43,556 nt of DNA from a virus, in IMG/VR virus record IMGVR_UViG_3300045741_000256, positions 1 to 43,556 of that record. One strand, 5' to 3'. This document shows, piece after piece, positions 7,624 to 34,836 of this stretch. The translations under genes were made by a program, and so were the position numbers. Below the pieces are notes generated by a model. The model made no database searches. It was not told the origin of the DNA and saw only the letters and a list, made by a program, of their open reading frames with translations. Within the stretch, counting starts at the first letter, position 1; each line of letters begins with the position of its first letter.

Positions 7624-7638
7624 ATATTAGGAATAAAA

Positions 7639-7668
7639 AGTGTACGGGGAAAAAATTTTATCTGTCAA
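7639..7668 (-). promoter_or_regulatory. Promoter of the late (terminase-structural) operon
   Basis: On the minus strand there is a perfect TTGACA (-35, 7663-7668), an 18-bp spacer and TACACT (-10, 7639-7644). The predicted start is about 10 nt upstream of the ATG at 7623, so the leader would be very short. It precedes the whole late gene set, though late transcription may need extra factors. Confidence 0.55.
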
Positions 7669-7772
7669 CTCCTTCACTAATGGGACCCAAAGAAAAAGCG
7701 GACTACCCACCCGGCACCCTTCCCTCAAAATACCGCACAACAGAGCCATATAATAGCTGTAAACAAGTACCA

Positions 7773-8180
7773 TTAGGCTTCTCCCCTAAAGCGGGATAGA
7801 CCATCATTAATCATGGATTTGAGCTCATCCGCTGTTACATCTAGGTTGATACTCTTCTCTGCGGCATAAGCGCCTTCGACTTTGAAGATTAATTCAGCGG
7901 CTTTTAATCTGTCTTTATTCTCAGCATGAGCTTGATTTAGTATATTCTGCACCACTCTCTTTGCATTCTCAGTTGTAAATCCTTCCTGTTCTAGAGCCAC
8001 ATTTATGGCATTGATTGTGCCTGGTTGCTTAAAAACAACATGCGGCGAGTGTCTGGCATGAGTTTCACTATATCCACTAGCTACCATTAACTGCATCTTA
8101 TTGCGGGGCTTTTTTAGTGATTTGAGGTCTTTTGCTAGTTCTCTACCTAGTTTCATTTGTTTTATTGTTGATACACTCAT
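7773..8180 (-). CDS. terS: Probable terminase small subunit
   Basis: This 135-residue protein has an N-terminal helix-turn-helix-like region (LMVASGYSETHARHSPHVV, about residues 32-50) that matches the style of small terminase subunits, which bind the packaging site and hand the genome to the large subunit. A helical oligomerisation region follows (residues 65-105, with NKDRLKAAELIFKVEGAY). It lies just upstream of the large terminase block. I chose the ATG at 8180 because a TATAAT box ends 7 nt before it; an in-frame start at 8222 would add 14 residues. The last 20 residues are a short charged tail. Confidence 0.75.
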   Translation of the reverse strand: MSVSTIKQMKLGRELAKDLKSLKKPRNKMQLMVASGYSETHARHSPHVVFKQPGTINAINVALEQEGFTTENAKRVVQNILNQAHAENKDRLKAAELIFKVEGAYAAEKSINLDVTADELKSMINDGLSRFRGEA

Positions 8181-18270: not shown

Positions 18271-18786
18271 ATGGCCACCAAACGAACAAAAAGGGGTGTA
18301 GGACGAAAGAAGACTAATCTTTCGATATCTGATACCAAAAGAAAATTTGATGTCCCTGTGACCGCCTGGATGCGTTACAAGAACCCTATCCAAAAAGGCA
18401 TCCTGTGGTACTTGTTTTCAATAGCCATTCGTAAACGAGATGTTGCAAAATACGGAACTTGTATTTCTTGTGGGAAAAGAATCACCGTTGAGACTTCCGA
18501 CTGCGGTCATTTTATCCCCGCTGCTTCATGTGGAAGGGATTTACTTTTCAATCCGTATAACAACAATGCTGAATGTACCCAGTGCAATGCCTGGGATGAA
18601 CTTCATCTTTTTGGATACGCAAAAGGGCTTGATAACCGTTATGGTGTTGGGACAGCTGAGATGCTTTTGGCGCAACATCGTCACTTGAAATACATGGAAC
18701 CTACTGAGAAGCTCAAGGCTAACAAGGATTTTTCAGCCAAAGAATACGAAGAAAAGATTACCCACCTCAAGTTACATGGCCTATGA
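18271..18786 (+). CDS. ninG: NinG/Rap-like recombination protein
   Basis: This 171-residue protein has CISCGKR (about residues 64-70) and, after a short gap, DCGHFIPAASCGRDLLFNPYNNNAECTQCNAW, the cysteine and histidine pattern of the NinG (Rap) family. In lambda NinG is a Holliday-junction-type structure-specific endonuclease that aids RecA-dependent recombination. The ATG at 18271 follows the previous stop by one base (TAGTATG); a longer frame runs into the preceding gene. It ends in an ATGA overlap with the first glycosyltransferase, which ties the glycan island to the replication operon. Confidence 0.8.
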   Translation: MATKRTKRGVGRKKTNLSISDTKRKFDVPVTAWMRYKNPIQKGILWYLFSIAIRKRDVAKYGTCISCGKRITVETSDCGHFIPAASCGRDLLFNPYNNNAECTQCNAWDELHLFGYAKGLDNRYGVGTAEMLLAQHRHLKYMEPTEKLKANKDFSAKEYEEKITHLKLHGL

Positions 18787-19877
18787 AAGTAGCCCTGTTG
18801 TTCGTGTGTCTTAATCCGCGCTACTGGCCGTTTCTCAAGAACATCAGTGAGGATGTCGATAAGCACTTTCTCAAGAATCACCAGGTAGATAAATTTGTGT
18901 GGACTGATGTGCCTGAAATTGGCTCTAAAGAATACGATGCCGTCCTTGCCGGACTCAACCCCGCTGAAAACATAGCTGCCCGAATCCGCGAACTGAATGC
19001 ACTCTTGCCGACTGCCGCTGATCCACAAGCTGTCAATCTTGAAATGCTGGCTACTCAAAAACTGGACTCCCGAGAGTCAATCGACGAGGCAATCAAGTTC
19101 CTTAGAGAGAAGAACAACTTCACCATCATTCCTACAGGACCCTCAGAGTGGCCGCTACCGACTCTGATGCGCTACCACCTATTTCTACAGGAGGAAGAAA
19201 AGCTCAAGGAGTACGACTACATCTTTTACCTCGATGCAGATATGCGAATGGTTGGGACCGTTGGTGATGAGATTCTTGGAAATGGCCTCACGATGGCGCA
19301 GCACCCAATGTACGCCCTGGCACGTCGCTACATCCCGCCGTATGAGCCAAACCCAAACTCCACAGCGTTCATACCGCGATTCGGCAGAATCCAGGCAAGC
19401 CAGGGAACTCCCTACTTCGATCCTCTCTACGCAGCTGGCGGTTTCCAAGGTGGCAGATCGGCTGACTTCATCACGGCAATGTGGGCAATGAAGCGCAACA
19501 TCGACAAGGATTTCCACAACATCAACTACACCGCCATTTGGAACGACGAGTCCCACTGGAACAAGTACCTTTCAGAGCACCCACCAGTGGTTGTCTTGGA
19601 CCCAGGATATATCTACCCAGATTCACTCATCAACGAGTACTACATCCCAACCTGGGGCCGCAACTACGAACCAAAGATAATCACCCTCACCAAGAAGTTC
19701 TCCCTATCTCCACAGGGAATGGACGCTCTCAAGAAGATGGTTGGTCCTGTCACTGACAGTCCCTTTATTTGTCCAACGTGTGGTAGTTCAATCGTTGACC
19801 CAAAGATACGAGTCACCAAAGTTAATAAGTGTGGTGGCTCTGGTGGGCCACACGAAGTCGAAGGAGTACTGATATGA
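18783..19877 (+). CDS. Family 6 glycosyltransferase (ABO blood-group type) with zinc-ribbon-like tail
   Basis: GT6 enzymes move Gal or GalNAc in alpha-1,3 linkage onto an acceptor sugar; the human members make A and B antigens. The match rests on WPLPTLMRYHLF (residues 123-134), YIFYLDADM with DAD at 151-153 in the metal-binding DxD place, YAAGGFQGG (216-224) and WNDESHWNKYL (253-263), all in the family's order. It has DAD where most bacterial relatives I know of have NxN. At 364 residues it is longer than bacterial GT6 (about 250) because of an insert at roughly 50-118 and a C-terminal tail with CPTCG (330-334) and C350. Soluble, no signal. The codon use looks more G/C rich than the following gene. 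Confidence 0.8.
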   Translation: MKVALLFVCLNPRYWPFLKNISEDVDKHFLKNHQVDKFVWTDVPEIGSKEYDAVLAGLNPAENIAARIRELNALLPTAADPQAVNLEMLATQKLDSRESIDEAIKFLREKNNFTIIPTGPSEWPLPTLMRYHLFLQEEEKLKEYDYIFYLDADMRMVGTVGDEILGNGLTMAQHPMYALARRYIPPYEPNPNSTAFIPRFGRIQASQGTPYFDPLYAAGGFQGGRSADFITAMWAMKRNIDKDFHNINYTAIWNDESHWNKYLSEHPPVVVLDPGYIYPDSLINEYYIPTWGRNYEPKIITLTKKFSLSPQGMDALKKMVGPVTDSPFICPTCGSSIVDPKIRVTKVNKCGGSGGPHEVEGVLI

Positions 19878-20542
19878 CCATCTCAGTGATAATTCCGAGT
19901 TACAACCAACAAGAGTACCTTGCGGATTGTATTGAGTCTGTACTCACACAGACGATAAAACCTTACGAGATTATTGTGGTCGATGATGGCAGTACCGATA
20001 ACTCTTTGGAGATTGCTCGTAAGTATCCCGTTACTGTAGTTTCGCAGCGAAACAAGGGCCTGTCTGCCGCTAGAAACACTGGCATAATGAACTCTTCCGG
20101 AGACTACATTTTGCCGCTAGACGCTGACGACATGCTGATGGAAAACTGCATAGAAGTAATGACGAAGGCAATCAACGAAACCAAGTGCGACATTATCGCG
20201 CCATCGTTCAAGGAATTTGGTGTACGAAATCAACCCCTGATTCTTACAGGAATGCCCACTCTCGAAGATTTCAAGACTGCAAACAGACTCCCGTACTTCT
20301 GCGCCATCAGGCGTTCTGCTCTTCTCGAATGTGGTGGTTACTCTCCCCGTATGACCTGGGGTTGGGAAGATTTCCACATTTGGTTCGATCTCATTACTAG
20401 AAATAAATCAATTTGCATTATTCAAATCCCATTAGTCCTGTATCGCACAAAGGCGCAGTCAATGATTCATGTCGCTAATGCACATGCCGCTGAACTACAC
20501 GCGCAGATTATTAAAGACTTCCCTAGCGTTTTCTCAGTATGA
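19874..20542 (+). CDS. Family 2 glycosyltransferase
   Basis: This 222-residue GT-A enzyme transfers a sugar from a nucleotide donor with inversion. It shows the GT2 start SVIIPSYNQ, VVDDGSTDNS (residues 36-44), LSAARNTG and LDADD (82-86) for nucleotide and metal binding, and WGWEDFHIW as the ED acceptor/base motif. The ATG at 19874 overlaps the GT6 stop (ATGA) and has an AAGGAG 8 nt upstream. It carries a 13-bp palindrome read as SQRN. No membrane helix, so it is a soluble or peripheral enzyme. Confidence 0.9.
   Translation: MTISVIIPSYNQQEYLADCIESVLTQTIKPYEIIVVDDGSTDNSLEIARKYPVTVVSQRNKGLSAARNTGIMNSSGDYILPLDADDMLMENCIEVMTKAINETKCDIIAPSFKEFGVRNQPLILTGMPTLEDFKTANRLPYFCAIRRSALLECGGYSPRMTWGWEDFHIWFDLITRNKSICIIQIPLVLYRTKAQSMIHVANAHAAELHAQIIKDFPSVFSV
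20040..20052. repeat. TTTCGCAGCGAAA palindrome, copy 8
   Basis: Within the first GT2 gene, in a different frame (SQRN), showing that DNA rather than protein sequence is conserved. Confidence 0.9.
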
Positions 20543-21270
20543 AAATATCCGTAGTAATTCCATGCCACCAAATGGAAAACTGGCAATTCTTTCTAAAGAG
20601 GAGCATTGAGAGTGTGAAAAATCAGTCTTTCAAAGATTATGAAATAGTCATTTCTGATGACTCAGGAGTTGATGACAGAAAATTGATGGAATTTTTGTGG
20701 AATGAAATTGACATTGGGCCATTTACGTGGGCTCAAAGAGTAAAAGGTGAACTTAAGGGTATGGCTCGAAACTCTAACAGAGCTATAAAATATGCTAGGG
20801 GAGAGCTGATAAAAATACTGTACATGGATGATTACCTAGCTCACGAAAATTCTCTACAAATGATTGTTGATAAATTCAAAGAAAATGATACTTGGCTCGT
20901 AACAGGGTGTATACATCAAGATAAAACAAATCAACTTACAAACCCACATGTGCCTACATATTCAGAAGAGATATACACAGGTAAAAATACTATTGGCTCT
21001 CCAAGCGTGCTAACATTTAAGCGTGAAAGAGGACTCTTATTTGATGAACGTCTTAGTTGGTTGCTCGATTGCGACCTCTACAAGCGTTACTTTGACGCTT
21101 ATGGTAGACCCAAAATCCTCGACGACATCAACGTGGTCATCGGACTCCATGATGGTCAAACCTCAAATCTTATGAGCTACGCTGATAAGTCTCTTGAGCA
21201 CGGATTAGTTATGGGAAAACATTATAAGGGTGAAACTAAAGTTAAAGAGATGTACAAGTATGAAAACTAA
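20539..21270 (+). CDS. Family 2-like glycosyltransferase
   Basis: This 243-residue protein begins KISVVIPCHQM and has EIVISDDSG (residues 35-43) and ILYMDDYL (about 93-100) in place of the usual DxD. The ends of the domain differ from the neighbouring GT2 and the DNA is visibly more A/T rich in its first two-thirds, suggesting separate acquisition. It starts in the codon after the previous stop (AGTATG overlap) and its end overlaps the next start. Likely a GT2 member; donor and acceptor unknown. Confidence 0.75.
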   Translation: MKISVVIPCHQMENWQFFLKRSIESVKNQSFKDYEIVISDDSGVDDRKLMEFLWNEIDIGPFTWAQRVKGELKGMARNSNRAIKYARGELIKILYMDDYLAHENSLQMIVDKFKENDTWLVTGCIHQDKTNQLTNPHVPTYSEEIYTGKNTIGSPSVLTFKRERGLLFDERLSWLLDCDLYKRYFDAYGRPKILDDINVVIGLHDGQTSNLMSYADKSLEHGLVMGKHYKGETKVKEMYKYEN

Positions 21271-22282
21271 AGTTCTTCTTACAGGTATTGGTGGGAGTAT
21301 TTCAGCACACTTCCTCAAATACATCCTTACAAACTCAGATTGGGATGTGATAGGAATTGACTCCTTCAGGCATAAGGGTTGGTCAGATCGTGTCAACATG
21401 GTAATTGGAGAAAACGAGGAATGGCGTAAGCGCTTAACTATCATTACCCATGACTTAACAGCTCCGTTATCCCCAGTTGCCAAGAGCAAAATCGGGTACG
21501 TTGATTATATAATCTCAATGGCTGCTTTGTCTGATGTAGAGGCAAGTATCCAAAATCCTGAGTATTACATAAAAAATAACGTTGACTTGGTAATTAACTT
21601 GCTTGAGTATGCCAGAGAAATCAAACCTAAAGTATTCGTACAGATCTCCACAGATGAAGTCTATGGTGCAGTGTCTTCAAAACATGATGACCTTAGAAGA
21701 GAGTGGGACGCCATTATCCCATCAAACCCGTATGCAGCTTCTAAAGCTTGCCAAGAAGCAATCGCAATTAGCTACTGGCGAACTTACGGTGTTCCAGTAA
21801 TCATCACTAACACGATGAACAACTTTGGGGAAATGCAACAATCCTCAAAATTCCCTGCAATGCTCCAAAAATGGATTGCAGCAGGTAAAAAAGTAACCAT
21901 ACACGGAAAGCCAGGTGAAATAGGCTCTCGTTCGTATATTCACTCTTGGAACTTTGCTAGTGCCATTATGTTTATTTTGGAGAAATTGCCGCCGCACATG
22001 CACGTGCCGAACGCCGTTGATAAACCTGACAGGTACAACATTGCAGGTGATAAACAGTTGGATAATCTTGAACTTGCAGAACTAATCTCAAGCCTCATGG
22101 GAGAAACAAAATTAGACTACGAACTTGTCGACACTCACTCTCAGCGACCTGGGCATGACCCGCACTACGGACTTGATTCATCGAAACTCTACGCTCTCGG
22201 ATGGAAGCCACCACTCACCTTTGAAGAGTCCCTAAAAAATACTATCGAGTGGCAATCAAAGCATCCTGAATGGATGGCCTAA
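21260..22282 (+). CDS. Sugar-nucleotide 4,6-dehydratase-like SDR enzyme
   Basis: This 340-residue extended short-chain dehydrogenase has an N-terminal Rossmann motif TGIGGSIS (last Gly replaced by Ser), ISTDEVYG (residues 129-136) with the T-D-E triad typical of 4,6-dehydratases such as RmlB, and YAASK (158-162) with catalytic Tyr and Lys. It probably makes a 4-keto-6-deoxy sugar nucleotide, the first step to deoxysugars. The nucleotide (CDP, dTDP or GDP) cannot be read from motifs. I chose the ATG at 21260 inside the end of the previous gene; the longer frame has no family match. Confidence 0.8.
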   Translation: MKTKVLLTGIGGSISAHFLKYILTNSDWDVIGIDSFRHKGWSDRVNMVIGENEEWRKRLTIITHDLTAPLSPVAKSKIGYVDYIISMAALSDVEASIQNPEYYIKNNVDLVINLLEYAREIKPKVFVQISTDEVYGAVSSKHDDLRREWDAIIPSNPYAASKACQEAIAISYWRTYGVPVIITNTMNNFGEMQQSSKFPAMLQKWIAAGKKVTIHGKPGEIGSRSYIHSWNFASAIMFILEKLPPHMHVPNAVDKPDRYNIAGDKQLDNLELAELISSLMGETKLDYELVDTHSQRPGHDPHYGLDSSKLYALGWKPPLTFEESLKNTIEWQSKHPEWMA

Positions 22283-22283
22283 T

Positions 22284-22886
22284 ATGAAATCTGTACGCAA
22301 ACAAATAGGTGGTCTAGGTAATCTAATGTTCAAAGAAGCCTATCTTATTGGAAAGACCCTTGATGGAGAAATTCCTGATGTTTACCTTCAAAGTCAGAAG
22401 TATTGGGAAAAACACACTGATAGAATACGCGCTACCTTTTCAGAAGGGATAAGCCCAACCATAGACAAAGTTGCTCTTCATATTCGTCGTGGGGATTACA
22501 AGGGAAATCCATTCTATGTCAATCTTTGGGAAACTGAATACTACAAGCAAGCAACTCGAATGTTCCCCAATGACCAATTCATTGTGTTTTGCAAAGATAA
22601 TCAGGGCTGGGACACTGATAAAAATGACCGCCAGTGGTGCCGAATTGCTCTCCTACCGTTGATTGGTACAAGATTTGAGCTTCCTCCCAAAGAACTTACT
22701 GAAGCAGAAGACATGAATCTCATGGCTTCCTGCAAGCACATTATTATGGCTAACAGCAGTTTCTCTTGGTGGGCCGCAATGCTTAACAAGAATCCTAATA
22801 AGATTGTTGTAGCTCCTAGCGTTGATAAATGGTATTCGGATGGCGTTGAACGAACCGAATGTCCTAAAGAATGGATACGCCTATGA
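22284..22886 (+). CDS. Family 11 glycosyltransferase (alpha-1,2-fucosyltransferase type)
   Basis: This 200-residue enzyme has GGLGNLMF (residues 9-16), HIRRGDY (66-72) and NSSFSWWAAML (157-167), the three hallmark motifs of GT11. Known members add L-fucose in alpha-1,2 linkage; at least one bacterial member adds colitose, a 3-deoxyfucose. It is shorter than typical GT11 (280-300 residues), losing most of the middle, and may be a minimal enzyme. It lies 1 nt after the dehydratase gene and overlaps the next. Confidence 0.8.
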   Translation: MKSVRKQIGGLGNLMFKEAYLIGKTLDGEIPDVYLQSQKYWEKHTDRIRATFSEGISPTIDKVALHIRRGDYKGNPFYVNLWETEYYKQATRMFPNDQFIVFCKDNQGWDTDKNDRQWCRIALLPLIGTRFELPPKELTEAEDMNLMASCKHIIMANSSFSWWAAMLNKNPNKIVVAPSVDKWYSDGVERTECPKEWIRL

Positions 22887-23869
22887 ACAGAAGAATACTC
22901 ATCACAGGTAGCTCAGGTCTTGTTGGTTCGGCCTGTATGGAACTGTTTATCGAAAAGGGCTGGTATGTAACTGGAATTGACAACAATGGCCGATCAAAAT
23001 TCTTTGGGACAGAGAAGAGACCTGTCTTCAACGAGATTGATATTCGAGATGAAGTTGCAATCAATAAACTATTCTCAGAGAAGACGTTCGACGCCATCAT
23101 TCATGCTGCAGGTCAGCCATCCCATGATTACGCTACCGACCATGTGCTTGAAGACTTCGATATCAATGCGCGTGGCACTCTAATCCTCTTGGAGGCAACT
23201 AGAAAGTACTGCCCAGAAGCAGTCTTTGTCTATGTCTCTACGGATAAGGTGTATGGGGAGAATATGAAGGCAATTACGCTTCAGGAAGAAACGATGCGTT
23301 ATCAACCTTGGGGGAAGGACGACGAAAAAGGGTTTTCCGAATCACTTGGTCTCGACTTCGCAGGAGACCGTTCATTCTTCGGTTGTTCCAAAGCCGCCGC
23401 AGATATGTACGCCCAACAATATGCAGCCCGTTTCGGCATGAAGGTCGGGGTCTTTCGACCGGGCTGTATCACTGGCAGGAACCATGCTGGAGCCGAACAG
23501 CATGGGTTCCTAGCCTATTTAGCAAAGTGTATTAAAGGAGGTAAGACCTATAAAATATATGGCAACGGGAAACAAGTCAGAGACCAAATCCATTCGAGTG
23601 ACTTGGCATCGGCTCTCTATGAGTTCATCCAGTCCCCCAAAGTGGGAGGAGTGTACAACATTGGAGGAGGCCCAGAAAGGAGCGTATCTGTCCTTGAAGC
23701 GGGAACGCTTCTTGGAGAAGCTATAGGCCGCCCATTTATTAAGACATGGACCTCACCTAGGAAAGGAGACAGACTATGGGATGTTCACGATGTCAGCAAG
23801 TTTCGCAGAGATTACCCAGAGTGGGACTACAAGTATGCTTTATCAGCGATTATAAAAGACTTAGTATGA
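22883..23869 (+). CDS. CDP-paratose 2-epimerase-like SDR enzyme
   Basis: This 328-residue protein has TGSSGLVGSA (residues 8-17), VTGIDNNGRSKFFG (29-42), STDKVYGEN (119-127), FFGCSK (165-170), a TGRNHAGAEQHGFLAYL stretch and YGNGKQVRDQIHSSD, a series that resembles the tyvelose-pathway 2-epimerase group. That group turns CDP-paratose to CDP-tyvelose. The catalytic Tyr of the Y-x3-K motif is Phe166 here. Related proteins I recall also have Phe at this place, so activity is not excluded. The ATG at 22883 overlaps the previous stop. Confidence 0.75.
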   Translation: MNRRILITGSSGLVGSACMELFIEKGWYVTGIDNNGRSKFFGTEKRPVFNEIDIRDEVAINKLFSEKTFDAIIHAAGQPSHDYATDHVLEDFDINARGTLILLEATRKYCPEAVFVYVSTDKVYGENMKAITLQEETMRYQPWGKDDEKGFSESLGLDFAGDRSFFGCSKAAADMYAQQYAARFGMKVGVFRPGCITGRNHAGAEQHGFLAYLAKCIKGGKTYKIYGNGKQVRDQIHSSDLASALYEFIQSPKVGGVYNIGGGPERSVSVLEAGTLLGEAIGRPFIKTWTSPRKGDRLWDVHDVSKFRRDYPEWDYKYALSAIIKDLV

Positions 23870-25032
23870 AAAGAGACATTAAATACGGCGGTATGCTTCT
23901 TGGGAAAGAAGAGATAGCTGCTGTTAATAAAGTAATGAAACGTAATTGGTGGCCACTAGGGGAAGAGGGAAAATTAATGGAAGCTGAAGCAGCTAAATTT
24001 CTTGGAATGAAACATGGCATACTTGCAAATTCTGGTTCTAGTGCTGGTTTACTGGCTCTTATGGCGTTGGAGCTTCCTAAGGGAAGTGAAGTCATCATAC
24101 CTGCTGTTACTTTCCCTACTATATTTAACATTATTGTTCACTGTGGTCTTGTCCCTGTGGTAGTTGATTCAAAGATTGGTTCGTACAATCTTGACCCTGA
24201 AGAACTTGAGGAGGCAATTTCTGATAAAACAAAGGCAATCATCTGTGTCCATGCCGTAGGCAATCCGTGTGATATGCCGAAGATTATTAAGATAGCTAAG
24301 AGGAATAAATTATATGTTCTTGAGGACAACTGTGACGGGTGGGGCGGAACTATCGGAACAAGAAAGGTCGGCTCTTTTGGTACATTATCTTTTACATCGT
24401 TCCACGCGGCTCACATTGTGTCCATGGGACAAGGAGGAGGAGTATTTACAAATGACGCGGAACTTGCACGTAAAGTGCGAATGTACCGAGACTGGGGAAG
24501 ACAGGCTGACTTGAATGGCCGCACAAACGATAAGTGGCCGTCCCTACCGAAAGATTACGACAATCGCTTCATCTACGAAAAGATGGGATTAAATCTCTCA
24601 CCACTTGAACTTCAAGCTGCAATGGGACGTATACAGCTTAAAAAGACCGCTAAGATAAAGAGATTGCGGCAGAGGAATTTTACCTATCTATATAAACACC
24701 TCAGTAAGTTTGAAGACCTTATTATGCCTACATGGGTTAATGGTGCTGAACCTAGCTGGTTTTCTTTTCCTATTACAACAATGGGAAAGCGCGGTCCCCT
24801 TGTAGCTCATCTTGAGGAACACGGTATTGAGACTCGGAGCATGTTCGCTGGCAATATCATTAAGCACCCTGCGTATAAAAATGTCCATTACCGCATTGGT
24901 TTTTCGCTTGACCACGCTGACTATATTCTCAAGCATAGTTTTTGGATAGGTTGCCATCCTCGAATGACACAGGAAGACCGAGAGTACGTTGTTGACGTTT
25001 TCAAGGACTACTACGAAAATCATGCAGAGTAA
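23866..25032 (+). CDS. PLP-dependent sugar 3-dehydratase-like protein (DegT fold, His for Lys)
   Basis: This 388-residue DegT/DnrJ/EryC1/StrS-fold protein has the motif SFHAAHIVSMGQGGG (178-191) with His183 at the position of the PLP-binding Lys. His at this site marks the 3-dehydratases ColD and E1 (RfbH/AscC type), which remove the 3-hydroxyl of a 4-keto-6-deoxy sugar nucleotide on the way to 3,6-dideoxyhexoses. The RDWGR segment is followed by QADLNGRTNDKW with none of the cysteines that E1 uses to hold its 2Fe-2S cluster, and its length is near ColD's (about 390). It is therefore more ColD-like in chemistry though E1-like in sequence around RDWGR. Confidence 0.85.
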   Translation: MKRDIKYGGMLLGKEEIAAVNKVMKRNWWPLGEEGKLMEAEAAKFLGMKHGILANSGSSAGLLALMALELPKGSEVIIPAVTFPTIFNIIVHCGLVPVVVDSKIGSYNLDPEELEEAISDKTKAIICVHAVGNPCDMPKIIKIAKRNKLYVLEDNCDGWGGTIGTRKVGSFGTLSFTSFHAAHIVSMGQGGGVFTNDAELARKVRMYRDWGRQADLNGRTNDKWPSLPKDYDNRFIYEKMGLNLSPLELQAAMGRIQLKKTAKIKRLRQRNFTYLYKHLSKFEDLIMPTWVNGAEPSWFSFPITTMGKRGPLVAHLEEHGIETRSMFAGNIIKHPAYKNVHYRIGFSLDHADYILKHSFWIGCHPRMTQEDREYVVDVFKDYYENHAE

Positions 25033-25621
25033 ATTACTACTTCCCGAAGTAACTCTTATTGCAGTTACGAGTAAAGATATTCCCTCTCATAAAGAGGCTA
25101 TTGAAAAGTCTACGGAGGCAGTTTATTTTGGCGATGTTCGATTGATTGAAGAGCCAACGCTTACATCGATTGATGCTTGGAATAAATACATCATCTTTGA
25201 CCTGTGGAAGCACGTTGATACAGAATTTGCCATGCTTATTCATGCGGATGGATACGTTAAAAATCCCTCAGCATGGCGCAATGACTTCCTTGAGTATGAC
25301 TATATTGGTGCTCCGTGGCCTCTCCCAAGAGATAATTATTCCTACCGTGACCAGAACGGGGAGATAGTACGGGTAGGAAATAGTGTCTCAATTCGTAGCC
25401 AGAAAATGCTTCGAGCACCAACTACGCAGAACTTCGAGTGGAAATCTTTCTATGGGAACACAAACGAAGATGGATTTCTTTGTTGCCACCACAGACAAGA
25501 TTTAGAGGCTCTTGGATGCACGTTTGCTCCACTTGAGGTTGCCAAATACTTTAGTAAAGAACACGAAATTCCTGAGAACGAAGGTATTGATACCTTTGCG
25601 TTCCACCAGACCGATATATGA
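25022..25621 (+). CDS. DUF5672-like putative glycosyltransferase
   Basis: This 199-residue protein has WNKYIIFDLWKHVDTEFAM then LIHADGYV (an HADG in place of DxD) and EYDYIGAPWPL (about residues 90-100), features of the DUF5672 family, which is thought to hold glycosyltransferases. It ends with HxTDI-like AFHQTDI. It starts inside the end of the dehydratase gene and overlaps the next by ATGA. Donor and acceptor unknown. Confidence 0.65.
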   Translation: MQSKLLLPEVTLIAVTSKDIPSHKEAIEKSTEAVYFGDVRLIEEPTLTSIDAWNKYIIFDLWKHVDTEFAMLIHADGYVKNPSAWRNDFLEYDYIGAPWPLPRDNYSYRDQNGEIVRVGNSVSIRSQKMLRAPTTQNFEWKSFYGNTNEDGFLCCHHRQDLEALGCTFAPLEVAKYFSKEHEIPENEGIDTFAFHQTDI

Positions 25622-25776
25622 TAATCAGAAAGATATTGGCGATACCATTTGTCCTCGTTGGTCTCTGGACTAGCCTGGTTGCAAAAATCATTATTGGTAA
25701 TGATAAAATCTACGTTGCTTGGTTACAAGAAATCGCCCATGCGCTGATTCATCCTTTTCACAAACACAAAGTATGA
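25618..25776 (+). CDS. Tiny membrane protein, paralogue of the one at 10757
   Basis: This 52-residue ORF overlaps both neighbours by ATGA. It has one hydrophobic span (residues 5-26, KILAIPFVLVGLWTSLVAKIII) and a His-rich end. Residues 1-16 align with the 39-residue protein at 10757-10876 (R-x-I, P-F-V-L-x-G). Its place inside the glycan operon suggests it could hold soluble glycosyltransferases at the membrane, which is inference. Confidence 0.55.
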   Translation: MIIRKILAIPFVLVGLWTSLVAKIIIGNDKIYVAWLQEIAHALIHPFHKHKV

Positions 25777-26510
25777 TATTTGGTTTATGGCATCCAGGTA
25801 GTGGAGTAGGAGACCAAATCTTCAGCTATTTGGCTGCTCGGGTTACTGCTAAGAGACTTGGTGTTCCTTTTACGATGTATGGGGATTTCAAGGGAAAAGG
25901 TTTCATTACACTTGAGAATTTCAATGTTAATCAATTCTCGCACCATGTTGAGATGCCAGCAGGTAAGCTAGTTGTTGATTGCGACTGGCCCACCTACGAA
26001 GGCAAGACCTACTACGACCCTGAGTTCAACTTCATAGGGGACAACACCATTGTGGATGGTTGTTACTGTCAGGATGAGCGGTATTGGGCTGGTTATCCTA
26101 TTGCTGACTGGCTTCAAACAGAGCCTCTTGATATGCCTGACGACCTCTGTGTCATTAACTTCCGAGGTGGTGAGTTCTCTGCGTTCCCTGATCTGTTCCT
26201 GCCTCAGAGTTATTGGGATGAGGCTATTGAAATGATGAAGGTAAATGGATTCAAACAATTCCAAGTACATACTGATGACCCTGCTACGGCAAATAAATTC
26301 TTTCCTGACTTTGATATTATCCACGATGTCGGTCTGAACTGGCGGTCAGTTCGCTATGCTAAAGGGGCCATCATTGCCAATTCAGCGTTCGGTATCATCC
26401 CTCGTCTTCTCAATGGTGGCACAACGATTGCTCCTCGATACTGGGCTCGTAGGAACATCAAGCAGTGGTCCACTCCCCAGAATTACTATCCTAATTTCAT
26501 TTATATATGA
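25773..26510 (+). CDS. Divergent GT11-like glycosyltransferase
   Basis: This 245-residue protein carries GSGVGDQIFSYLAARVTAKRLG (the place of GGLGNQ-F in GT11), VINFRGGEF (in place of H-x-RRGD) with PQSYWDEAIEMM after it, and IIANSAFGIIPRLL in place of NSTFSWWAAWL. The pattern order is that of GT11, but key residues differ, so the sugar moved may not be fucose. It begins in an ATGA overlap with the small membrane gene. Confidence 0.6.
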   Translation: MIFGLWHPGSGVGDQIFSYLAARVTAKRLGVPFTMYGDFKGKGFITLENFNVNQFSHHVEMPAGKLVVDCDWPTYEGKTYYDPEFNFIGDNTIVDGCYCQDERYWAGYPIADWLQTEPLDMPDDLCVINFRGGEFSAFPDLFLPQSYWDEAIEMMKVNGFKQFQVHTDDPATANKFFPDFDIIHDVGLNWRSVRYAKGAIIANSAFGIIPRLLNGGTTIAPRYWARRNIKQWSTPQNYYPNFIYI

Positions 26511-26677
26511 AATATCCTGTTCGACAGGTTCCTTATGGAAATTCAGGAAAACAATTTTGGAGAAAAAGATTTTGGAGATTTCATGTAAGTTGTTGTGAAC
26601 GTGGTGGGACAGAACAGGCTGGAAACTATATTTGTCTCTTTTTATCAGACAGAAAATTGTACCTTTCTTTCTTATGA
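26507..26677 (+). CDS. 56-residue Arg/aromatic protein in glycan operon
   Basis: This ORF is joined by ATGA overlaps at both ends. It is rich in Arg, Phe and Trp (KQFWRKRFWRFHVSCCERGG) and has an amphipathic, membrane-seeking character near its end. No family is recognised. The double coupling supports its reality. Confidence 0.5.
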   Translation: MKYPVRQVPYGNSGKQFWRKRFWRFHVSCCERGGTEQAGNYICLFLSDRKLYLSFL

Positions 26678-27300
26678 ACGCATGTCTTGTAAACTACAAC
26701 TTCGACCCGAAGGATTGGTGGCTCAAGTATGGTATGGAGGCCCGAGTCTACGACAGGTCTGATGATGGCATAGAAAGGAGTTTCGCTGCGAAAGTCGTAA
26801 TGTCCGAGAATCGTGGAAATGTCGATTACGACAAGCTGATGTTCCTGGTGGAGTTCTACGATGAGCTGCCCGAGGTTTTCTTGTGGGGTAAGACCAACCT
26901 ATTCAAATACATCACTGAGTCCGAATTTGCTGAGAAGCTAGAGAAGTGTGAAGGTTTCACACCGCTGATACGCCAGGACCACCTTACCTACCGTGACCAG
27001 TACGGTCTGGTTAATTATTACGACTCAAGCGGTATGTACTACGAGAAGAACAATTCCTGGTATCTCAATGTCCATCCGGCACACAATATCTATTCGTGGC
27101 ATGACTGGGCTCAGATGTTCCGACTCCCAGAGCCAGCCTTCATCCCCTTCGCACCTGGAGGCAATTACATTCTTACACGTGAAACAGTTCACAAACACTC
27201 GCGTGACCTCTATCGAGAGATGGCTGAGACTATGCCCTACACGACCCTTCCAGGAGAGGCTCAATTAGCAGAGAGAAGTTACTACCTTCTATGGTCTTAA
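26674..27300 (+). CDS. DUF3431-like protein, putative glycan enzyme
   Basis: This 208-residue protein has SENRGNVDYDKLMFLVEFYDELPEVFLWGK broken over residues 45-75 and a closing FIPFAPGGNYILTRETV region, which match in style the DUF3431 family (N-x-G-x2...YxxLP; F-x2-GxxF-x-V). Proteins of this family lie in glycan clusters and are thought to be glycosyltransferases. It contains a 13-bp palindrome read as FAAK. Overlaps both neighbours. Confidence 0.55.
   Translation: MNACLVNYNFDPKDWWLKYGMEARVYDRSDDGIERSFAAKVVMSENRGNVDYDKLMFLVEFYDELPEVFLWGKTNLFKYITESEFAEKLEKCEGFTPLIRQDHLTYRDQYGLVNYYDSSGMYYEKNNSWYLNVHPAHNIYSWHDWAQMFRLPEPAFIPFAPGGNYILTRETVHKHSRDLYREMAETMPYTTLPGEAQLAERSYYLLWS
26781..26793. repeat. 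TTTCGCTGCGAAA palindrome, copy 9
   Basis: Within the DUF3431-like gene, read as FAAK. Confidence 0.9.
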
Positions 27301-27449
27301 CCGCTTGTGTAAAGAAAAGCTACGCCACTGAGCGTGATGCGCTCGACAAGCGCAAGGTCATTAAACAAGAACAGGGAAAGAAAAGTCTCCATGCTTACAG
27401 GTGTCCATATTGTAAATTCTGGCATTTAACACATCAAAAACAACGATGA
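27291..27449 (+). CDS. Zinc-finger-like mini-protein between glycosyltransferase genes
   Basis: This 52-residue basic protein ends in YRCPYCKFWHLTH, a C-x2-C-x3-H-x2-H zinc-binding pattern seen in small phage proteins. It overlaps the previous gene by 10 nt and the next by ATGA. A DNA- or RNA-binding protein inside a glycan operon is unusual. Confidence 0.55.
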   Translation: MVLTACVKKSYATERDALDKRKVIKQEQGKKSLHAYRCPYCKFWHLTHQKQR

Positions 27450-28303
27450 AGATTTCCGCTTTTACATACAATGGCGAGTCTGAGATGCTCAGGCTCCATG
27501 TTGGTTCTCTTCATAAGGAAATTGACCACTTCTTTGTAGTCGAATCGACAAAAACCTTTTCTGGTGCTTACAAGCCCCTCTATTACCCACGCGATAAGCA
27601 TTGTATTGAAGAATGGAAGAATCAAGTGACTCATTTTGTTACTGACGATTCTTTGTCTGATTATTGGGATTTAGCACGTTCCTCACCCAACACCGTAGGT
27701 GCTGAACATTGGAAGCGCGAGTTCGTACAAAAAGAGGCAATTCGTGATGCCCTACAATACCTTGAAGATGATGACATTGTGTATATCGGGGATGTTGATG
27801 AGATACCTGACATGCGGTATGTGCCGAAAAATAAGGTAGAGAAACTCAAGCTCCGAGTGTATGCCTACTATATGGACAATAGGTCTTCGGAAGAGTTCTG
27901 GGGACCTATTGTTGGTCGCTGGAAAGACATAAAGGGCAAGTGTCTCAACCACATCCGTTCCGATGTTTCGCTGCGAAACACTGAGTACGCTGGGTGGCAC
28001 TTCACTTCACAGGGAGGGTATGCCGAATTAAAAAGGAAGTTACGAGACTCATATACCTCAGAGAGCTACTTCACTCCTGAAGTTGAGCGTAATCTTTCAT
28101 ATAATTACATGAATGGTGTTGACTTCCTTGGCAGGAACTTTACCTTCAAAGTCGATGAGTCCGAGTGGCCAACCTATCTAAAAAAGCATCGGGTTGAATA
28201 CGCTCACCTGTGTCGTGGTGTTGGCAAATTTGCTTCTCACCGTCGTAAACTTCGTAAAAAAGATACTCACTCTCAATATAACCCCGCCGAAGCGGGGGAT
28301 TAA
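27446..28303 (+). CDS. Family 17-like glycosyltransferase
   Basis: This 285-residue protein starts MKISAFTYNGESEMLRLHVG, has FFVVESTKTFSG (residues 29-40) and DDIVYIGDVDEIP (about 109-121), the motifs of GT17, the family of beta-1,4-N-acetylglucosaminyltransferase III. The acidic GDVDE holds the metal and donor. Bacterial and phage members have unknown donors. It is the last gene of the plus-strand island; its final codons form the arm of a terminator hairpin. It carries a 13-bp palindrome read as SLRN. Confidence 0.8.
   Translation: MKISAFTYNGESEMLRLHVGSLHKEIDHFFVVESTKTFSGAYKPLYYPRDKHCIEEWKNQVTHFVTDDSLSDYWDLARSSPNTVGAEHWKREFVQKEAIRDALQYLEDDDIVYIGDVDEIPDMRYVPKNKVEKLKLRVYAYYMDNRSSEEFWGPIVGRWKDIKGKCLNHIRSDVSLRNTEYAGWHFTSQGGYAELKRKLRDSYTSESYFTPEVERNLSYNYMNGVDFLGRNFTFKVDESEWPTYLKKHRVEYAHLCRGVGKFASHRRKLRKKDTHSQYNPAEAGD
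27966..27978. repeat. TTTCGCTGCGAAA palindrome, copy 10
   Basis: Within the GT17-like gene, read in another frame as SLRN. Confidence 0.9.
28282..28297. terminator. Shared terminator hairpin between converging operons
   Basis: CCCCGC pairs with GCGGGG around four bases. On the minus strand the loop is TTCG (stable UUCG tetraloop) followed by TTATATTG, so it best fits ending the late operon. On the plus strand it lies in the last codons (NPAEAGD) of the GT17-like gene and has a weaker T-run. Confidence 0.65.
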
Positions 28304-29044: not shown

Positions 29045-29325
29045 ATTTTGTTTTGTAACCACTCATAAATAAATTTCAGTGTTTGTTCTCCGAAAAAGCC
29101 ACCTACTCCGGCCATAATGTGTGTCATTGTAGCTGGGAGGTTCAATGATTCCCCGAGTAAGGCAAACATGTAGCCAGAGAATCCCGCTACGAATGCACTC
29201 GCTAGGAATACAGTGAAGTGAAACTTTTTACCACTTGCGAAACTATTCAAATATCGGGCACATCCTCCCAATACTGCGATTATTCCATATATTAACTCCA
29301 CTGGTATTTGTTCAATCCATTTCAT
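29041..29325 (-). CDS. Holin
   Basis: This 94-residue protein has three hydrophobic segments (about residues 9-25, 37-57 and 67-82) with charged ends, as in three-span phage holins that open the inner membrane for the endolysin. It begins in an ATGA overlap with the Gly-rich tail protein gene and overlaps the endolysin start. A longer frame from 29376 would lie inside the upstream gene. Confidence 0.75.
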   Translation of the reverse strand: MKWIEQIPVELIYGIIAVLGGCARYLNSFASGKKFHFTVFLASAFVAGFSGYMFALLGESLNLPATMTHIMAGVGGFFGEQTLKFIYEWLQNKI

Positions 29326-30176
29326 GTTCCTGTTCCTATAAGGGATAAATTTCTTGCTGTTGCTACCATTGTCCACGTTCCACTTGTATTAAAAGTGTGT
29401 ATTTGTTGATTAGAAACAGTTGTAATAGTTCCGCCACTTGATGAAGTTGAGACACCTGTTGAGCCATCGACTGGGAAGGAAATTATTACTACTCCATCTC
29501 CTCCGTTTGCACCTGCTTGAGCACCGCCACCGTTTCCTGCGCCACCACCGCCGCCTCCTAGGTTAGCTGTTCCCGCTGTTGGGACTGTTGCACCTTGTCC
29601 TCCGTTTCCACCACCCCCAGCTCCACCAGTACCCTTTAGATTGTTATATCCACCTCCACCGCCTCCCGCATAGGTGACGGATGCTCCACTAATTGAATTA
29701 GCTGTCCCAGCACCTCCGTTACCGCCATTAGTGTTAGCGACTGCATCTGCACCAACTGCACTCGCACCTCCCCCACCTCCTCCTGCGTTGTTACCACCTG
29801 ATTTTCCAACGCCACCATTCGAACCTTGAGAGCCAGTACCGCCAGTACCAGTACTTGTTCCACCGCCAGAACCACCGCCAGAACCACCGTTTAATCCGTT
29901 ACGTACTAAACCGTCGTCGCGTCCACCGCCGCCACCACCATTTGCTGTTATGGTGCTGAATGATGAGTTATTACCTGATGTTCCATCAGCTGGTGTTGAA
30001 GCTCCACCTGCTCCCCCTGTACCGACGGTAATCGTATACGCTTGAGGCGTAACCGTGAGTGAGGTATTGGATTGATATCCACCTGCTCCTCCACCAGCCC
30101 CACCGCCAAAACCACCTGCTTGAGCCCCGCCGCCACCTCCTCCTCCTCCAATAACTAATGTGTTTACTGTTGCCAT
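29322..30176 (-). CDS. Glycine-rich tail fibre or tip protein
   Basis: This 284-residue protein is dominated by Gly runs (GGGGGGGGAQAGG near residue 12, later GGGAGG, GGGGGG) and forms a polyglycine type II-like domain, seen in receptor-binding tips of several phages. The last 45 residues are a different beta-rich end (HTFNTSGTWTMV). It probably contacts the host surface. It follows the 104-residue protein. Confidence 0.75.
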   Translation of the reverse strand: MATVNTLVIGGGGGGGGAQAGGFGGGAGGGAGGYQSNTSLTVTPQAYTITVGTGGAGGASTPADGTSGNNSSFSTITANGGGGGGRDDGLVRNGLNGGSGGGSGGGTSTGTGGTGSQGSNGGVGKSGGNNAGGGGGGASAVGADAVANTNGGNGGAGTANSISGASVTYAGGGGGGYNNLKGTGGAGGGGNGGQGATVPTAGTANLGGGGGGAGNGGGAQAGANGGDGVVIISFPVDGSTGVSTSSSGGTITTVSNQQIHTFNTSGTWTMVATARNLSLIGTGT

Positions 30177-30496: not shown

Positions 30497-32569
30497 CTAT
30501 GTCTTAGAGATGAACCCTTGGGCAGTTATGTACACTGATGCTCCTGTACCAGAGCCTGATATTGATGCAGTAAACGCTCCATTTGCGTTCGTCTTTAGGC
30601 CATTCGGGAAGTTCATGTTTGTTCCACCTCCAGCAGGTGCAATTGCGTAACCAATAGTCGAACTTGTCGCTCCTTCTAATTTAAGCCACTGGGTAGTCGC
30701 CCCTGCGTTTATGATGTGAAGTCCTGTGATATAGGTGAAGATTGAGGCTCCCTGAGCTGCGATTACCGCAACAGAACCACCCGTTAGTGGGACACCACCG
30801 AGTATAGAAGCATTACCATTCACCCATTTTGTTATTGGGGCATTAGCAACAATCGTTTCACCTACCGGACCGTATGTTGGGTTTACGAACGTTCCGTCGG
30901 CCCCGAGAATAGATGCCATTGCATCGTTTCGGGCTCCAAGCACATATACACCCTTATCTCCAGCTGCGTGCGTACCAGCGACAGAGTATGTCCCAACGAT
31001 TGACTGTGCTTGCTGGATTGTGATTACAGAAGTGTTTGTAGAGGCAGTGAGCTGTGCAGCCACTGAGCCTGACCAGCCAGTACCCTGATAGACTGAGCCG
31101 ACTGTGACCCAGGGGGTTGCTCCTTGATAGGCAACAACAGAGCCAATCATTGTCGCCCCTATTCCAAGGTTTACCGTACCAGAGACTGATTGGTTTCCTT
31201 GAGCTACAACTGCAAAAGGTCGTGCATCTTCAGGACTAGCGACAACACGTGCAGTTATACTACCGACAGTCCAGTTTGAGACTCTCGCTCGCATTCCCTG
31301 TAGTCCTGCGGTGTTGAAAGCCCAGTTACCTTCAACTGTTGCCATTGAAGAAATGACGTTCGTCGATATGTTGTAGCCTTGGATTGGAACGAACTGAGTT
31401 CCGTCAAGAGTTCCTTCAAAGTTAATTGCTCCTGTTATTGAAGCTCCTGGGCCAGAGGTTATCTGCATCAGGGTTTGTTGATACCCTGTCGTTGTAAATA
31501 CAGAACCGTTGGTATTTGCGGTAACACCGACAAGAATTGAGGCTGTTGATGAATATATATCAGCTCCAGCTGAATTGATTACTGTACCTGAAACTGACTG
31601 GTTTCCTGTTGGTACAGCAAGCACTGAACCTGCCCATCCAGCACCTTGAAAGGCGACCACTGAGCCGGATACGTTTCCATACACTGAGCCGACGACTATC
31701 CAGGGGTTAGTCCCTTGAAGTGCCGCTACTGAGCCAATTACGTTGGGGCTATTCAAGAGCATCACCGAGGAATTGCTCATAGTAACCGTTGCCGAAGTCG
31801 CCATGATAGACCCCGCCAACTGCATTGTGATGACTGATGCGTTTGTTGATGTCGTTAGCGCAGCGGCCACAGAACCTGCGATGTTCCAAGGGCTTGTGCC
31901 TTGCAAGGCAGTAACAGAACCGATGACATTGGCTCCGTTAAGGAGCATCACTGAGGTATTACCAGCAGAGAAGGAGCCAGAGACTGCAAGTATCGAGCCA
32001 GCTGGTTGCAATGAGAACAGCGACGAGTTATTCGGTGCCGTTGTCCAAGGCGCGGCTCCCTGGAAAGCAACAACTGAACCAGACACGTTCTGAGTAGTAG
32101 GGAAGTTGGTTACTGTGGCTGCCACCGAACCAGAAATCGGAAAGATTCCTCCTGCTATTGAGCTGACCACAGTGACTGTGTTTGTGACGGTTGCAGCGAC
32201 CGAACCACTGATATTTCCATATATTGAGCCGATTATCCACGGAGTAGTCCCTTGAGTAGCTGAGACTGCCATGACTGAACCTGCTGGAGCTGTGACCGCA
32301 CCACTAACACTCTGGTTGGCTGCTGGGCTGAAGGAGCCTTGAACTGAACCTGTGATAATCCACGGGTTTGAGGCTGTTGCCTGAGTCACAGGAACTGTTC
32401 CGAGCACTGACATCGTTCCCTGTACGGAACCAGTCATTACATAGGGATTTGTACCTTGGAGAGCCGTAACCGAGCCTATTGTGGCTGTTCCAGCAGGAAG
32501 TTGACCTATGATACTAGCTCCGACGGTTCCGCTGACTGACTGATTCGTTTGGTAAGGGTTATATGCCAT
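30497..32569 (-). CDS. Long repetitive tail protein
   Basis: This 690-residue protein is built of many imperfect repeats of the type GSV-x-ALQGT-x-PW-x-GSV-x-G and SGSV-AATVT. It is rich in Ser, Ala, Val, Thr and Gly with few charged residues, so it is likely a fibrous beta structure such as a tail fibre. The final 100 residues are a separate domain (TTQWLKLEGATSSTIGYAI). The repeat number could vary by recombination. A 196-residue protein at 40806-41396 has the same GTV-type repeats and a similar end. Confidence 0.75.
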   Translation of the reverse strand: MAYNPYQTNQSVSGTVGASIIGQLPAGTATIGSVTALQGTNPYVMTGSVQGTMSVLGTVPVTQATASNPWIITGSVQGSFSPAANQSVSGAVTAPAGSVMAVSATQGTTPWIIGSIYGNISGSVAATVTNTVTVVSSIAGGIFPISGSVAATVTNFPTTQNVSGSVVAFQGAAPWTTAPNNSSLFSLQPAGSILAVSGSFSAGNTSVMLLNGANVIGSVTALQGTSPWNIAGSVAAALTTSTNASVITMQLAGSIMATSATVTMSNSSVMLLNSPNVIGSVAALQGTNPWIVVGSVYGNVSGSVVAFQGAGWAGSVLAVPTGNQSVSGTVINSAGADIYSSTASILVGVTANTNGSVFTTTGYQQTLMQITSGPGASITGAINFEGTLDGTQFVPIQGYNISTNVISSMATVEGNWAFNTAGLQGMRARVSNWTVGSITARVVASPEDARPFAVVAQGNQSVSGTVNLGIGATMIGSVVAYQGATPWVTVGSVYQGTGWSGSVAAQLTASTNTSVITIQQAQSIVGTYSVAGTHAAGDKGVYVLGARNDAMASILGADGTFVNPTYGPVGETIVANAPITKWVNGNASILGGVPLTGGSVAVIAAQGASIFTYITGLHIINAGATTQWLKLEGATSSTIGYAIAPAGGGTNMNFPNGLKTNANGAFTASISGSGTGASVYITAQGFISKT

Positions 32570-33078: not shown

Positions 33079-34836
33079 TTATACGACTCCCCAGACGGAG
33101 TTATTACTAACGATATCAAGAGAGATGTTTTGAATCGGTATTAAAGCTGAGGCAGAGCCGTCAATAGTCTCTCCACCTGTAGTGGTCACAATGACACTAC
33201 TGGCACTTGTATTTTTGATGGTATAGAGGTTGTTATTACCCACCGCAGTCGGAAGCGTTAAATTTAGCCCTGCATTGCAGAAATATACATAGTCTTTACT
33301 TCCAGCTGAGGCGGCTGTTTGGCTTGCCGTTATCACGCTCGTTATCCTGGTGATACCGCTACCACCCGAAGCTGTCACAGAGGCCCATTGGGTAATTCCA
33401 TTACCATCCGTAATCAAATATTGTCCTGTTGAGCCAGCTGTTGTTGGCAATGTAAGTGTCCAAGTTCCTGCAGCCGACGCCACTTGCGTTGTAACCGTAC
33501 CTGAAGTGGCTCCAGGCAGGAGCAAACGACCAACAACACTTGCTGATTGATTCCCGAGGGTCAAACCTGTTGGTCCGAGACGGCCAACTTCATTAGTAGC
33601 GCCCCAGCCACCTGTATGAAATTTTATTATTTTCCCCGCAACATTTCCATCAGTTCCTAGAGTTAGGTTCCCTCCTGAAACGTATAAATATCCATCATTA
33701 GCACTCCAAATTGTCTGGTCAACTAGAGTAAGAACATTTATCTTTCCTCCACTCCCTGTCCCACCAGTAAGTGAAAGTCCTGACGCGATTGAATATCCTG
33801 TTCCAGCATCTCCAAGTGAAACTGTTAAAATACCACCTCCTCCATTTATTGTAAGAACAATAACATTCGCGTTACTATCACCCCCAACTATTGTTAAAAT
33901 ATCATTAACTGTATATCCCGTCCCCGCAGTATTAACAGAAACTCCACGTATTAAACCAGAATTAACAGGTGTGAAGCCTGAACCATTTATGCCAACATCA
34001 GTATAGTGACCAATTTCCGAAGGAGAATCATTATCGGCTGATACAGACACATCAGTACTCGCAGTATCTCCGGTGCTTGTGTTCTGCACTTCTACTGCAA
34101 GAAAAGTATTAGTATTCCCCGTAACGGTCACCGGGAATTTGGAGTCAACACCAGCTGTCGCATTTGGACCACCAACAATAAACTGATTACTGGTTGGATT
34201 AAATTGAAGTAGGGAACTCTGTGCAATCACTGATGCAGGATGTACATATAGAATACTCAAATCTTGTCCCCCTGTGATGCCACCTCCTATAGAGGGAGTC
34301 CCGCCTCCACCACCACCTGATGAAGCAAAGGTTATGTCAGTCTGCTTAGTGGTGTCGTTATTGGCGTAAGTTATCGTGGTATTCGCACCTGCTTTGAGAT
34401 TGATGTCGGTATAGCGTGAGAGGGTACTTGAGTTACCGTTTACCGCAATGTTTCTATTGGCATTCCCACCTCCATGATTAGAGATGCGAGACATCACTGA
34501 AGGCATGATTGCCGCGATCACTTGCTTAAATGTAGGGGCAACCCCATCGTCGCCCTTGTCACCTTTTGGGCCAGGTTTGCCATCTTTTCCAGGCTTTCCA
34601 TCTGTCCCAGGGAGCCCTCGCTCACCTTCTGGTCCCTGGTCGCCCTTCGGACCCTTATCACCTTTATCTCCCTTGGGGCCTACAGTCTCGTCAGGTTCAG
34701 CATCAACTTTGACTCCGAGGTCAATGACCTCATTTTGAAGTTCCTCTACCTTATCTACCAGTTCCTGAACGTACTCAAGTAGAGTCTCCTCCTCGGGAGA
34801 AACGTCGGGGATATCTGGTAAATCATCGAATTGCAT
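33079..34836 (-). CDS. Collagen-like tail fibre protein
   Basis: This 585-residue protein has a coiled coil (residues 15-45), fifteen uninterrupted Gly-X-Y triplets rich in Lys, Asp and Pro (53-98, GPKGDKGDKGPK type), and then a long Gly/Ser/Thr-rich beta region, with several glycine-led repeats around 270-340. The end has a SASALIPIQNISLDIV motif typical of phage fibre C-termini. Such fibres form trimeric triple helices. It is a strong candidate receptor-binding fibre. Confidence 0.8.
   Translation of the reverse strand: MQFDDLPDIPDVSPEEETLLEYVQELVDKVEELQNEVIDLGVKVDAEPDETVGPKGDKGDKGPKGDQGPEGERGLPGTDGKPGKDGKPGPKGDKGDDGVAPTFKQVIAAIMPSVMSRISNHGGGNANRNIAVNGNSSTLSRYTDINLKAGANTTITYANNDTTKQTDITFASSGGGGGGTPSIGGGITGGQDLSILYVHPASVIAQSSLLQFNPTSNQFIVGGPNATAGVDSKFPVTVTGNTNTFLAVEVQNTSTGDTASTDVSVSADNDSPSEIGHYTDVGINGSGFTPVNSGLIRGVSVNTAGTGYTVNDILTIVGGDSNANVIVLTINGGGGILTVSLGDAGTGYSIASGLSLTGGTGSGGKINVLTLVDQTIWSANDGYLYVSGGNLTLGTDGNVAGKIIKFHTGGWGATNEVGRLGPTGLTLGNQSASVVGRLLLPGATSGTVTTQVASAAGTWTLTLPTTAGSTGQYLITDGNGITQWASVTASGGSGITRITSVITASQTAASAGSKDYVYFCNAGLNLTLPTAVGNNNLYTIKNTSASSVIVTTTGGETIDGSASALIPIQNISLDIVSNNSVWGVV

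Follow-up and report, generated by a model that had tools for sequence, protein, structure and literature searches.

3-Dehydratases with and without an iron-sulfur cluster

All 3-dehydratases form a Schiff base between PMP and the sugar, from which a histidine takes a proton and the C3 hydroxyl leaves (PMC8987622). The resulting intermediate is reduced through an iron-sulfur cluster and a reductase in case of E1 and SpnQ, whereas ColD hydrolyses it without a cluster and regenerates PMP by means of glutamate (PMC8987622). Cluster-free C3 deoxygenation is thus already known from ColD. No relevant paper on Fe-S-free relatives of E1 or on dideoxyhexose synthesis by phages was found in a literature search whose coverage was far from complete.

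The IMG/VR virus record IMGVR_UViG_3300045741_000256 was analysed in its entire length of 43,556 bases (the window). It encodes an E1-like, His-type protein of the DegT fold (P0001; 23866..25032, plus strand), predicted to be a PMP-dependent NDP-4-keto-6-deoxyhexose 3-dehydratase devoid of an Fe-S cluster. The open reading frame extends from ATG 23866 to the stop at 25032 (388 amino acids) and is a real gene: its start overlaps by 4 bases with the stop of SDR2, the SDR gene lying upstream, and PF01041 is matched over the full length of the product (290 bits).

Virus record and glycan cassette

The record probably represents a nearly complete, circularly permuted genome, since the major head protein gene is divided over both ends (1-550 and 42976-43556, minus strand); the two parts differ in frame, so a few bases are probably missing or surplus at the join. 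Related viruses of about 43-44 kb are consistent with this size. The portal protein (3337-5343) matches the SU10 portal family PF23899 weakly (35 bits) and yielded no match among 50,697 phage records. Two repetitive ORFs on the minus strand, one glycine-rich (29322-30176) and one GSV-rich (30497-32569), are located near a tail-fibre-like gene at 33079-34836.

The P0001 gene belongs to a glycan cassette (18783-28303), the content of which is conserved in related viruses, as is largely its order. All genes of the cassette listed here are on the plus strand. Upstream of the two SDR genes are located (i) a GT6-like glycosyltransferase-like gene (18783-19877) and (ii) two GT2 glycosyltransferase-like genes (19874-20542 and 20539-21270), while a glycosyltransferase family 11-like gene (22284..22886, PF01531) lies between SDR1 and SDR2. 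Downstream of P0001 follow a DUF5672 gene (ATG near 25022 to 25621), an ORF at 25719-26510, a DUF3431-like ORF scoring below the cut-off (26632-27300) and a further ORF at 27446-28303.

SDR1 (21260..22282, plus strand) is a dTDP-glucose 4,6-dehydratase-like protein with the motifs STDEVYG and YAASK; ATG 21260 is its likely start within an ORF that opens at GTG 21230. In each of the 26 loci with contig sequence reaching this far, bacterial loci included, it lies beside the DegT gene. STDEVYG is present in 25 of the 26 aligned rows, the catalytic TDE and YxxxK are retained, and the RmlB-like match reaches 201.6 bits, which is under the cut-off of 365.1. The 4,6-dehydratase-like neighbour reported in the first-pass annotation is thereby corroborated, and its motifs suggest that SDR1 is in all likelihood a 4,6-dehydratase, catalysing the step that yields the substrate for a 3-dehydratase.

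SDR2 (22871..23869, plus strand) is closest to CDP-tyvelose 2-epimerase, in line with the tyvelose-epimerase-like neighbour of the same annotation, but has its catalytic Tyr replaced by Phe170. The YxxxK site reads FGCSK in the record and in all 12 viral orthologues, as compared to YGCSK in 9rl0 and 1orr, and the kin of SDR2 appear to form an entire clade of epimerase-like SDRs lacking this Tyr. Only around one in two viral loci contains SDR2, at 58 % identity or more. Because of this restricted occurrence and the missing Tyr, no particular sugar, be it tyvelose or another one, is assigned to the cassette.

Active site of P0001

The first-pass annotation had described P0001 as a protein with His at the PLP-lysine, with an E1-like RDWGR region and without the Cys-x-Cys-x7-Cys part of the E1 cluster site; all three observations hold. 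In the motif S178-F179-H180-A181-A182-H183-I184, His183 (codon 24412..24414, plus strand) aligns with E1 His220, ColD His188 and the PLP-lysine of aminotransferases; in the alignment with PDB sequences, the same column holds the Lys of the E1 H220K mutant (3bb8). This column is occupied by His in all 68 dehydratase-like rows and by Lys in all 13 aminotransferases. Chance or a sequencing error at His183 was ruled out, since His is kept in all relatives; a lysine at the PLP position, named at the outset as evidence to the contrary, appears in the sequence of none of them.

For comparison of the cluster ligands, the E1 numbering was verified in the alignment (C193, D194, Y217, H220, C251, C253 and C261). 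P0001 possesses Cys156 at the position of C193, but the positions of C251 and C253 are taken by Ala and Leu and that of C261 falls in a gap, i.e., three of the four E1 [2Fe-2S] cysteines (Cys251, Cys253 and Cys261) are absent. They are gone because the loop following RDWGR is shortened (approximately residues 213-224; 24502..24537, plus strand) relative to its E1 counterpart, which carries all three. RDWGR itself is shared with E1, the best sequence match. Cys156 (codon 24331..24333, plus strand) was rejected as a leftover of a cluster: Cys is found here in all 68 His-type rows, including ColD, and the residue is therefore uninformative about a cluster.

A feature overlooked by the first-pass annotation is His180 (codon 24403..24405, plus strand) at the position of E1 Tyr217. 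His is present here in all 19 members of the P0001 clade in the tree set and in 10 of the 13 aminotransferases, as opposed to Tyr in E1, ColD and nearly all His-type rows outside the P0001 clade. Moreover, the clade has Ile184 where E1 and ColD have the second His of an HH pair. Together with G61, I89 and G192, H180 and I184 are specific for the P0001 group. Invariant in the family are S56-G57-S58, F83, D154, S178, H183, N243, R324 and G329, of which S56-G57-S58, F83, D154, S178 and N243 are cofactor-pocket positions. R324, Cys156 and G329 separate the His-type group from the aminotransferases, and H183, R324, D157 and Cys156 of P0001 side with the dehydratases. F83, D157 and N133 are E1-like; the corresponding residues in ColD rows are Trp, Glu and, in most cases, Phe. 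By its aligned residues, the active site of P0001 is thus a natural mix of dehydratase and aminotransferase features.

Relatives in viruses and bacteria

Two scans of viral contigs retrieved 26 distinct contigs encoding products 57-75 % identical to P0001. A search for phage homologues with His at the PLP-lysine position, proposed with the initial description, is hence answered by all 26 of them: SFHAAH is kept and the three cluster cysteines are missing throughout, as also in both bacterial-binned relatives. One of the latter two is encoded within a polysaccharide locus of Zambryskibacteria (flippase-like gene, glycosyltransferases, polysaccharide deacetylase), the other on a contig of 6 kb that was assigned to a Coxiella bin but may be a mis-binned phage. 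On this short contig, the DegT gene is adjoined by a gene for a 496-aa Cpn60/TCP-1-family chaperonin (L088:1771-3261), which is possibly phage-borne. In the bacterial locus L022, a 132-aa ORF without Pfam match (7506-7904) is located between SDR1 and the DegT gene; by eye it resembles a small cupin and might serve the pathway as a sugar isomerase.

Three further Cys-free His-type DegT groups, 31-40 % identical to P0001, were found in Patescibacteria (L064/L065/L069/L071; L075/L077-L079; L081-L083/L085-L087). With these and the bacterial-binned relatives, the notion that P0001-type proteins are unique to phages was discarded. Viral contigs are also abundant in ColD-type (184 stretches; the best 80 of 184 are L198-L277) and Fe-S E1-type relatives (196 stretches; the best 80 of 196 are L118-L197), so P0001 is not the sole Fe-S-free 3-dehydratase type among phages, given the ColD-type genes. 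Where annotated, these viral genes are mostly labelled aminotransferase or hypothetical protein. The cyanophages ACG-2014f and S-H68, for example, carry such genes under the labels 'aminotransferase' and 'CDP-4-dehydro-6-deoxy-D-glucose 3-dehydratase'; the cyanophage genes of ColD type bear no label beyond 'aminotransferase' or 'hypothetical protein'.

Placement by fold and phylogeny

The best NCBIfam model for P0001 is RfbH (NF011936) with 362.6 bits, which is under the curated cut-off of 423. The closest PDB sequences are E1 (3bcx; 37 % identity, TM 0.93) followed by ColD (2gms; about 31 % identity, TM 0.90). AlphaFold modelled the active site with low confidence when given 17 close sequences, and did better with an alignment of 60 rows (pLDDT 94.8, pTM 0.92). 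In the comparison with E1 and ColD that had been recommended for the predicted structure, the fold best matches E1, then ColD, with E-values ahead of aminotransferases.

A maximum-likelihood tree of 82 proteins splits all His-type rows from the Lys-type aminotransferases (support 100/99). The grouping of P0001 among true aminotransferases, which the first-pass annotation had named as a possible refutation, is rejected (AU p=0.005), and a Lys-type aminotransferase is ruled out by tree and residues alike. The P0001 clade is placed inside an E1-like superclade (99/95), which also comprises the Fe-S E1 enzymes and, from Patescibacteria, the first two of the Cys-free groups listed above. The ColD clade is separate from P0001 in the best tree (100/99). 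Since a joint clade of P0001 and ColD is nevertheless compatible with the data (AU p=0.325), the phylogeny makes a position of P0001 on the E1 branch likely, short of proof. A single clade of all Fe-S rows is likewise compatible with the data (AU p=0.433), and the support for grouping the Cys-free E1-like rows is only 74/38; the cluster may accordingly have been lost in the P0001 line or gained in that of E1. By sequence, fold and tree, P0001 is kin to the His-type 3-dehydratases.

Search for an E3-type reductase

No E3-type reductase domain (NAD_binding_1) was detected in the 43,556-base record or in five related virus records; all virus records may be fragments, and a reductase might come from the host. 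The Zambryskibacteria genome that encodes the P0001 homologue, possibly incomplete, likewise contains no NAD_binding_1 domain. In a survey of 28 patescibacterial genomes, this domain was present in 9 of the 14 with an Fe-S E1, in 2 of these within 1 kb of the E1 gene. Of the 14 with Cys-free types, 8 had it, never on the same contig stretch as the gene for the Cys-free protein. The survey is only suggestive.

Proposed mechanism and alternatives

P0001 is probably a PMP-dependent nucleotide-sugar 3-dehydratase that has an E1 scaffold and operates with neither an iron-sulfur cluster nor an E3 reductase. For such an enzyme we infer the chemical steps, as well as amino donor, nucleotide, final sugar and role for the phage, along the following lines. 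SDR1 would convert an NDP-hexose to the 4-keto-6-deoxy sugar, the C4 ketone of which would condense with the PMP amino group in P0001. His183 would then remove a proton from PMP C4' and the C3 hydroxyl would depart, yielding a cofactor-bound NDP-3,4-hexoseen. ColD-like hydrolysis of this adduct would release PLP and an enamine that sheds ammonia to form an NDP-4-keto-3,6-dideoxyhexose, while PLP would be returned to PMP by an amino donor, probably glutamate. The finished sugar would finally be used by the glycosyltransferases of the cassette.

The ColD route is the simplest one for P0001, because the cluster ligands are absent and no reductase gene was seen; this type of turnover is accordingly suggested by missing features. 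Counting against this reading are H180, a feature of aminotransferases, and I184, which are unlike E1 and ColD, and the RfbH score below the cut-off. The more detailed proposal of an E1-branch dehydratase that dispenses with Fe-S/E3 electron delivery and combines ColD-style hydrolysis, regeneration by an amino donor and a mixed H183 and H180 site is put forward tentatively, with somewhat less than even confidence. Of the earlier claim that a phage encodes an Fe-S-free, ColD-like 3-dehydratase, the His-type character, the distinction from aminotransferases and the lack of an E3-type domain in the record are supported by the sequence data, but such an enzyme is not new per se.

Because of H180, transamination is the strongest rival to dehydration: P0001 could be a His-type aminotransferase that uses the PMP amino group to aminate either the 4-keto sugar or a 3-deoxy intermediate at C4 and thus generates a 4-amino sugar. 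This is considered unlikely. The His at position 180 is that of most sugar aminotransferases (10 of 13 rows) and invariant in the P0001 clade, and Tyr217His is reportedly among the changes by which E1 was steered toward transamination. However, P0001 has no Lys and shares H183, R324, D157 and Cys156 with the dehydratases, and the tree rejects a grouping with aminotransferases (AU p=0.005). The His-type SpnQ does transaminate with PLP and glutamate when its reductase is omitted, but ColD and E1 lack such an activity under the SpnQ conditions (PMC8987622).

It is rather improbable that P0001 has ceased to dehydrate and acts as an epimerase, an isomerase or a non-catalytic partner of the SDR enzymes. 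The clade-specific residues G61, I89, H180, I184 and G192 point to an altered active site, and the adjoining SDR2 has an altered catalytic residue as well; yet the pocket positions and H183 are invariant among proteins of only 57-75 % identity to P0001, as expected for a working PMP enzyme. An E1-type 3-dehydratase without a cluster of its own, fed with electrons by an outside reductant such as a host ferredoxin or flavodoxin, is highly improbable. It would agree with the proximity of P0001 to the Fe-S E1 enzymes in the tree, and a host could provide the reductase missing from the virus records. Conversely, the ligands of the electron-relay cluster of E1 are absent in all relatives of P0001, the Zambryskibacteria carrier genome (possibly incomplete) has no NAD_binding_1 domain, and to our knowledge there is no cluster-free enzyme with such outside electron delivery.

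If P0001 is an E1-branch dehydratase of the kind tentatively proposed above, cluster-free C3 deoxygenation would occur on the E1 branch besides ColD, with a large pool of such predicted enzymes in viruses and Patescibacteria. The new element is a coherent viral clade that lacks the cluster, has a mixed active site and probably belongs to the E1 branch. A cluster-free enzyme on an E1 scaffold would constitute a natural experiment on one chemistry turning into another, and would provide 3,6-dideoxy sugars from a single protein that requires no redox partner. In addition, some of the genes labelled 'aminotransferase' (PF01041) in phages and candidate-phylum bacteria encode His-type proteins, which are most unlikely to be ordinary aminotransferases.

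Comparison with known systems

The Lys-type sugar aminotransferases (ArnB, PseC, WecE) belong to the fold family of P0001 and most of them have His at position 180, but they differ by Lys at 183 and by lacking R324 and Cys156. The patescibacterial Cys-free groups, whose function is predicted, share with P0001 the His at 183 and the absence of cluster cysteines, but have Tyr at position 180 and a different loop. SpnQ (dTDP-4-keto-2,6-dideoxyglucose 3-dehydratase), likened here by description, is of the His type as P0001, but has cluster cysteines and ferredoxin or flavodoxin systems (PMC8987622). With E1/RfbH/DdhC (CDP-4-keto-6-deoxy-D-glucose 3-dehydrase), P0001 shares His183, the Asp at E1 Asp194, RDWGR, Phe83 and Asn133; in contrast to E1, it lacks Cys251/Cys253/Cys261 and part of the loop, has Tyr217 replaced by His180 and the second HH-pair His by Ile184, and no E3 reductase domain was found near its gene. 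With ColD (GDP-4-keto-6-deoxy-D-mannose 3-dehydratase) it has in common His instead of Lys, the absence of a cluster, R324, the G329-N330 region and the fold, whereas ColD and its viral relatives show Trp, Glu and (mostly) Phe at the positions of Phe83, Asp157 and Asn133. P0001 is thus best read as E1-like in its scaffold and ColD-like in being metal-free.
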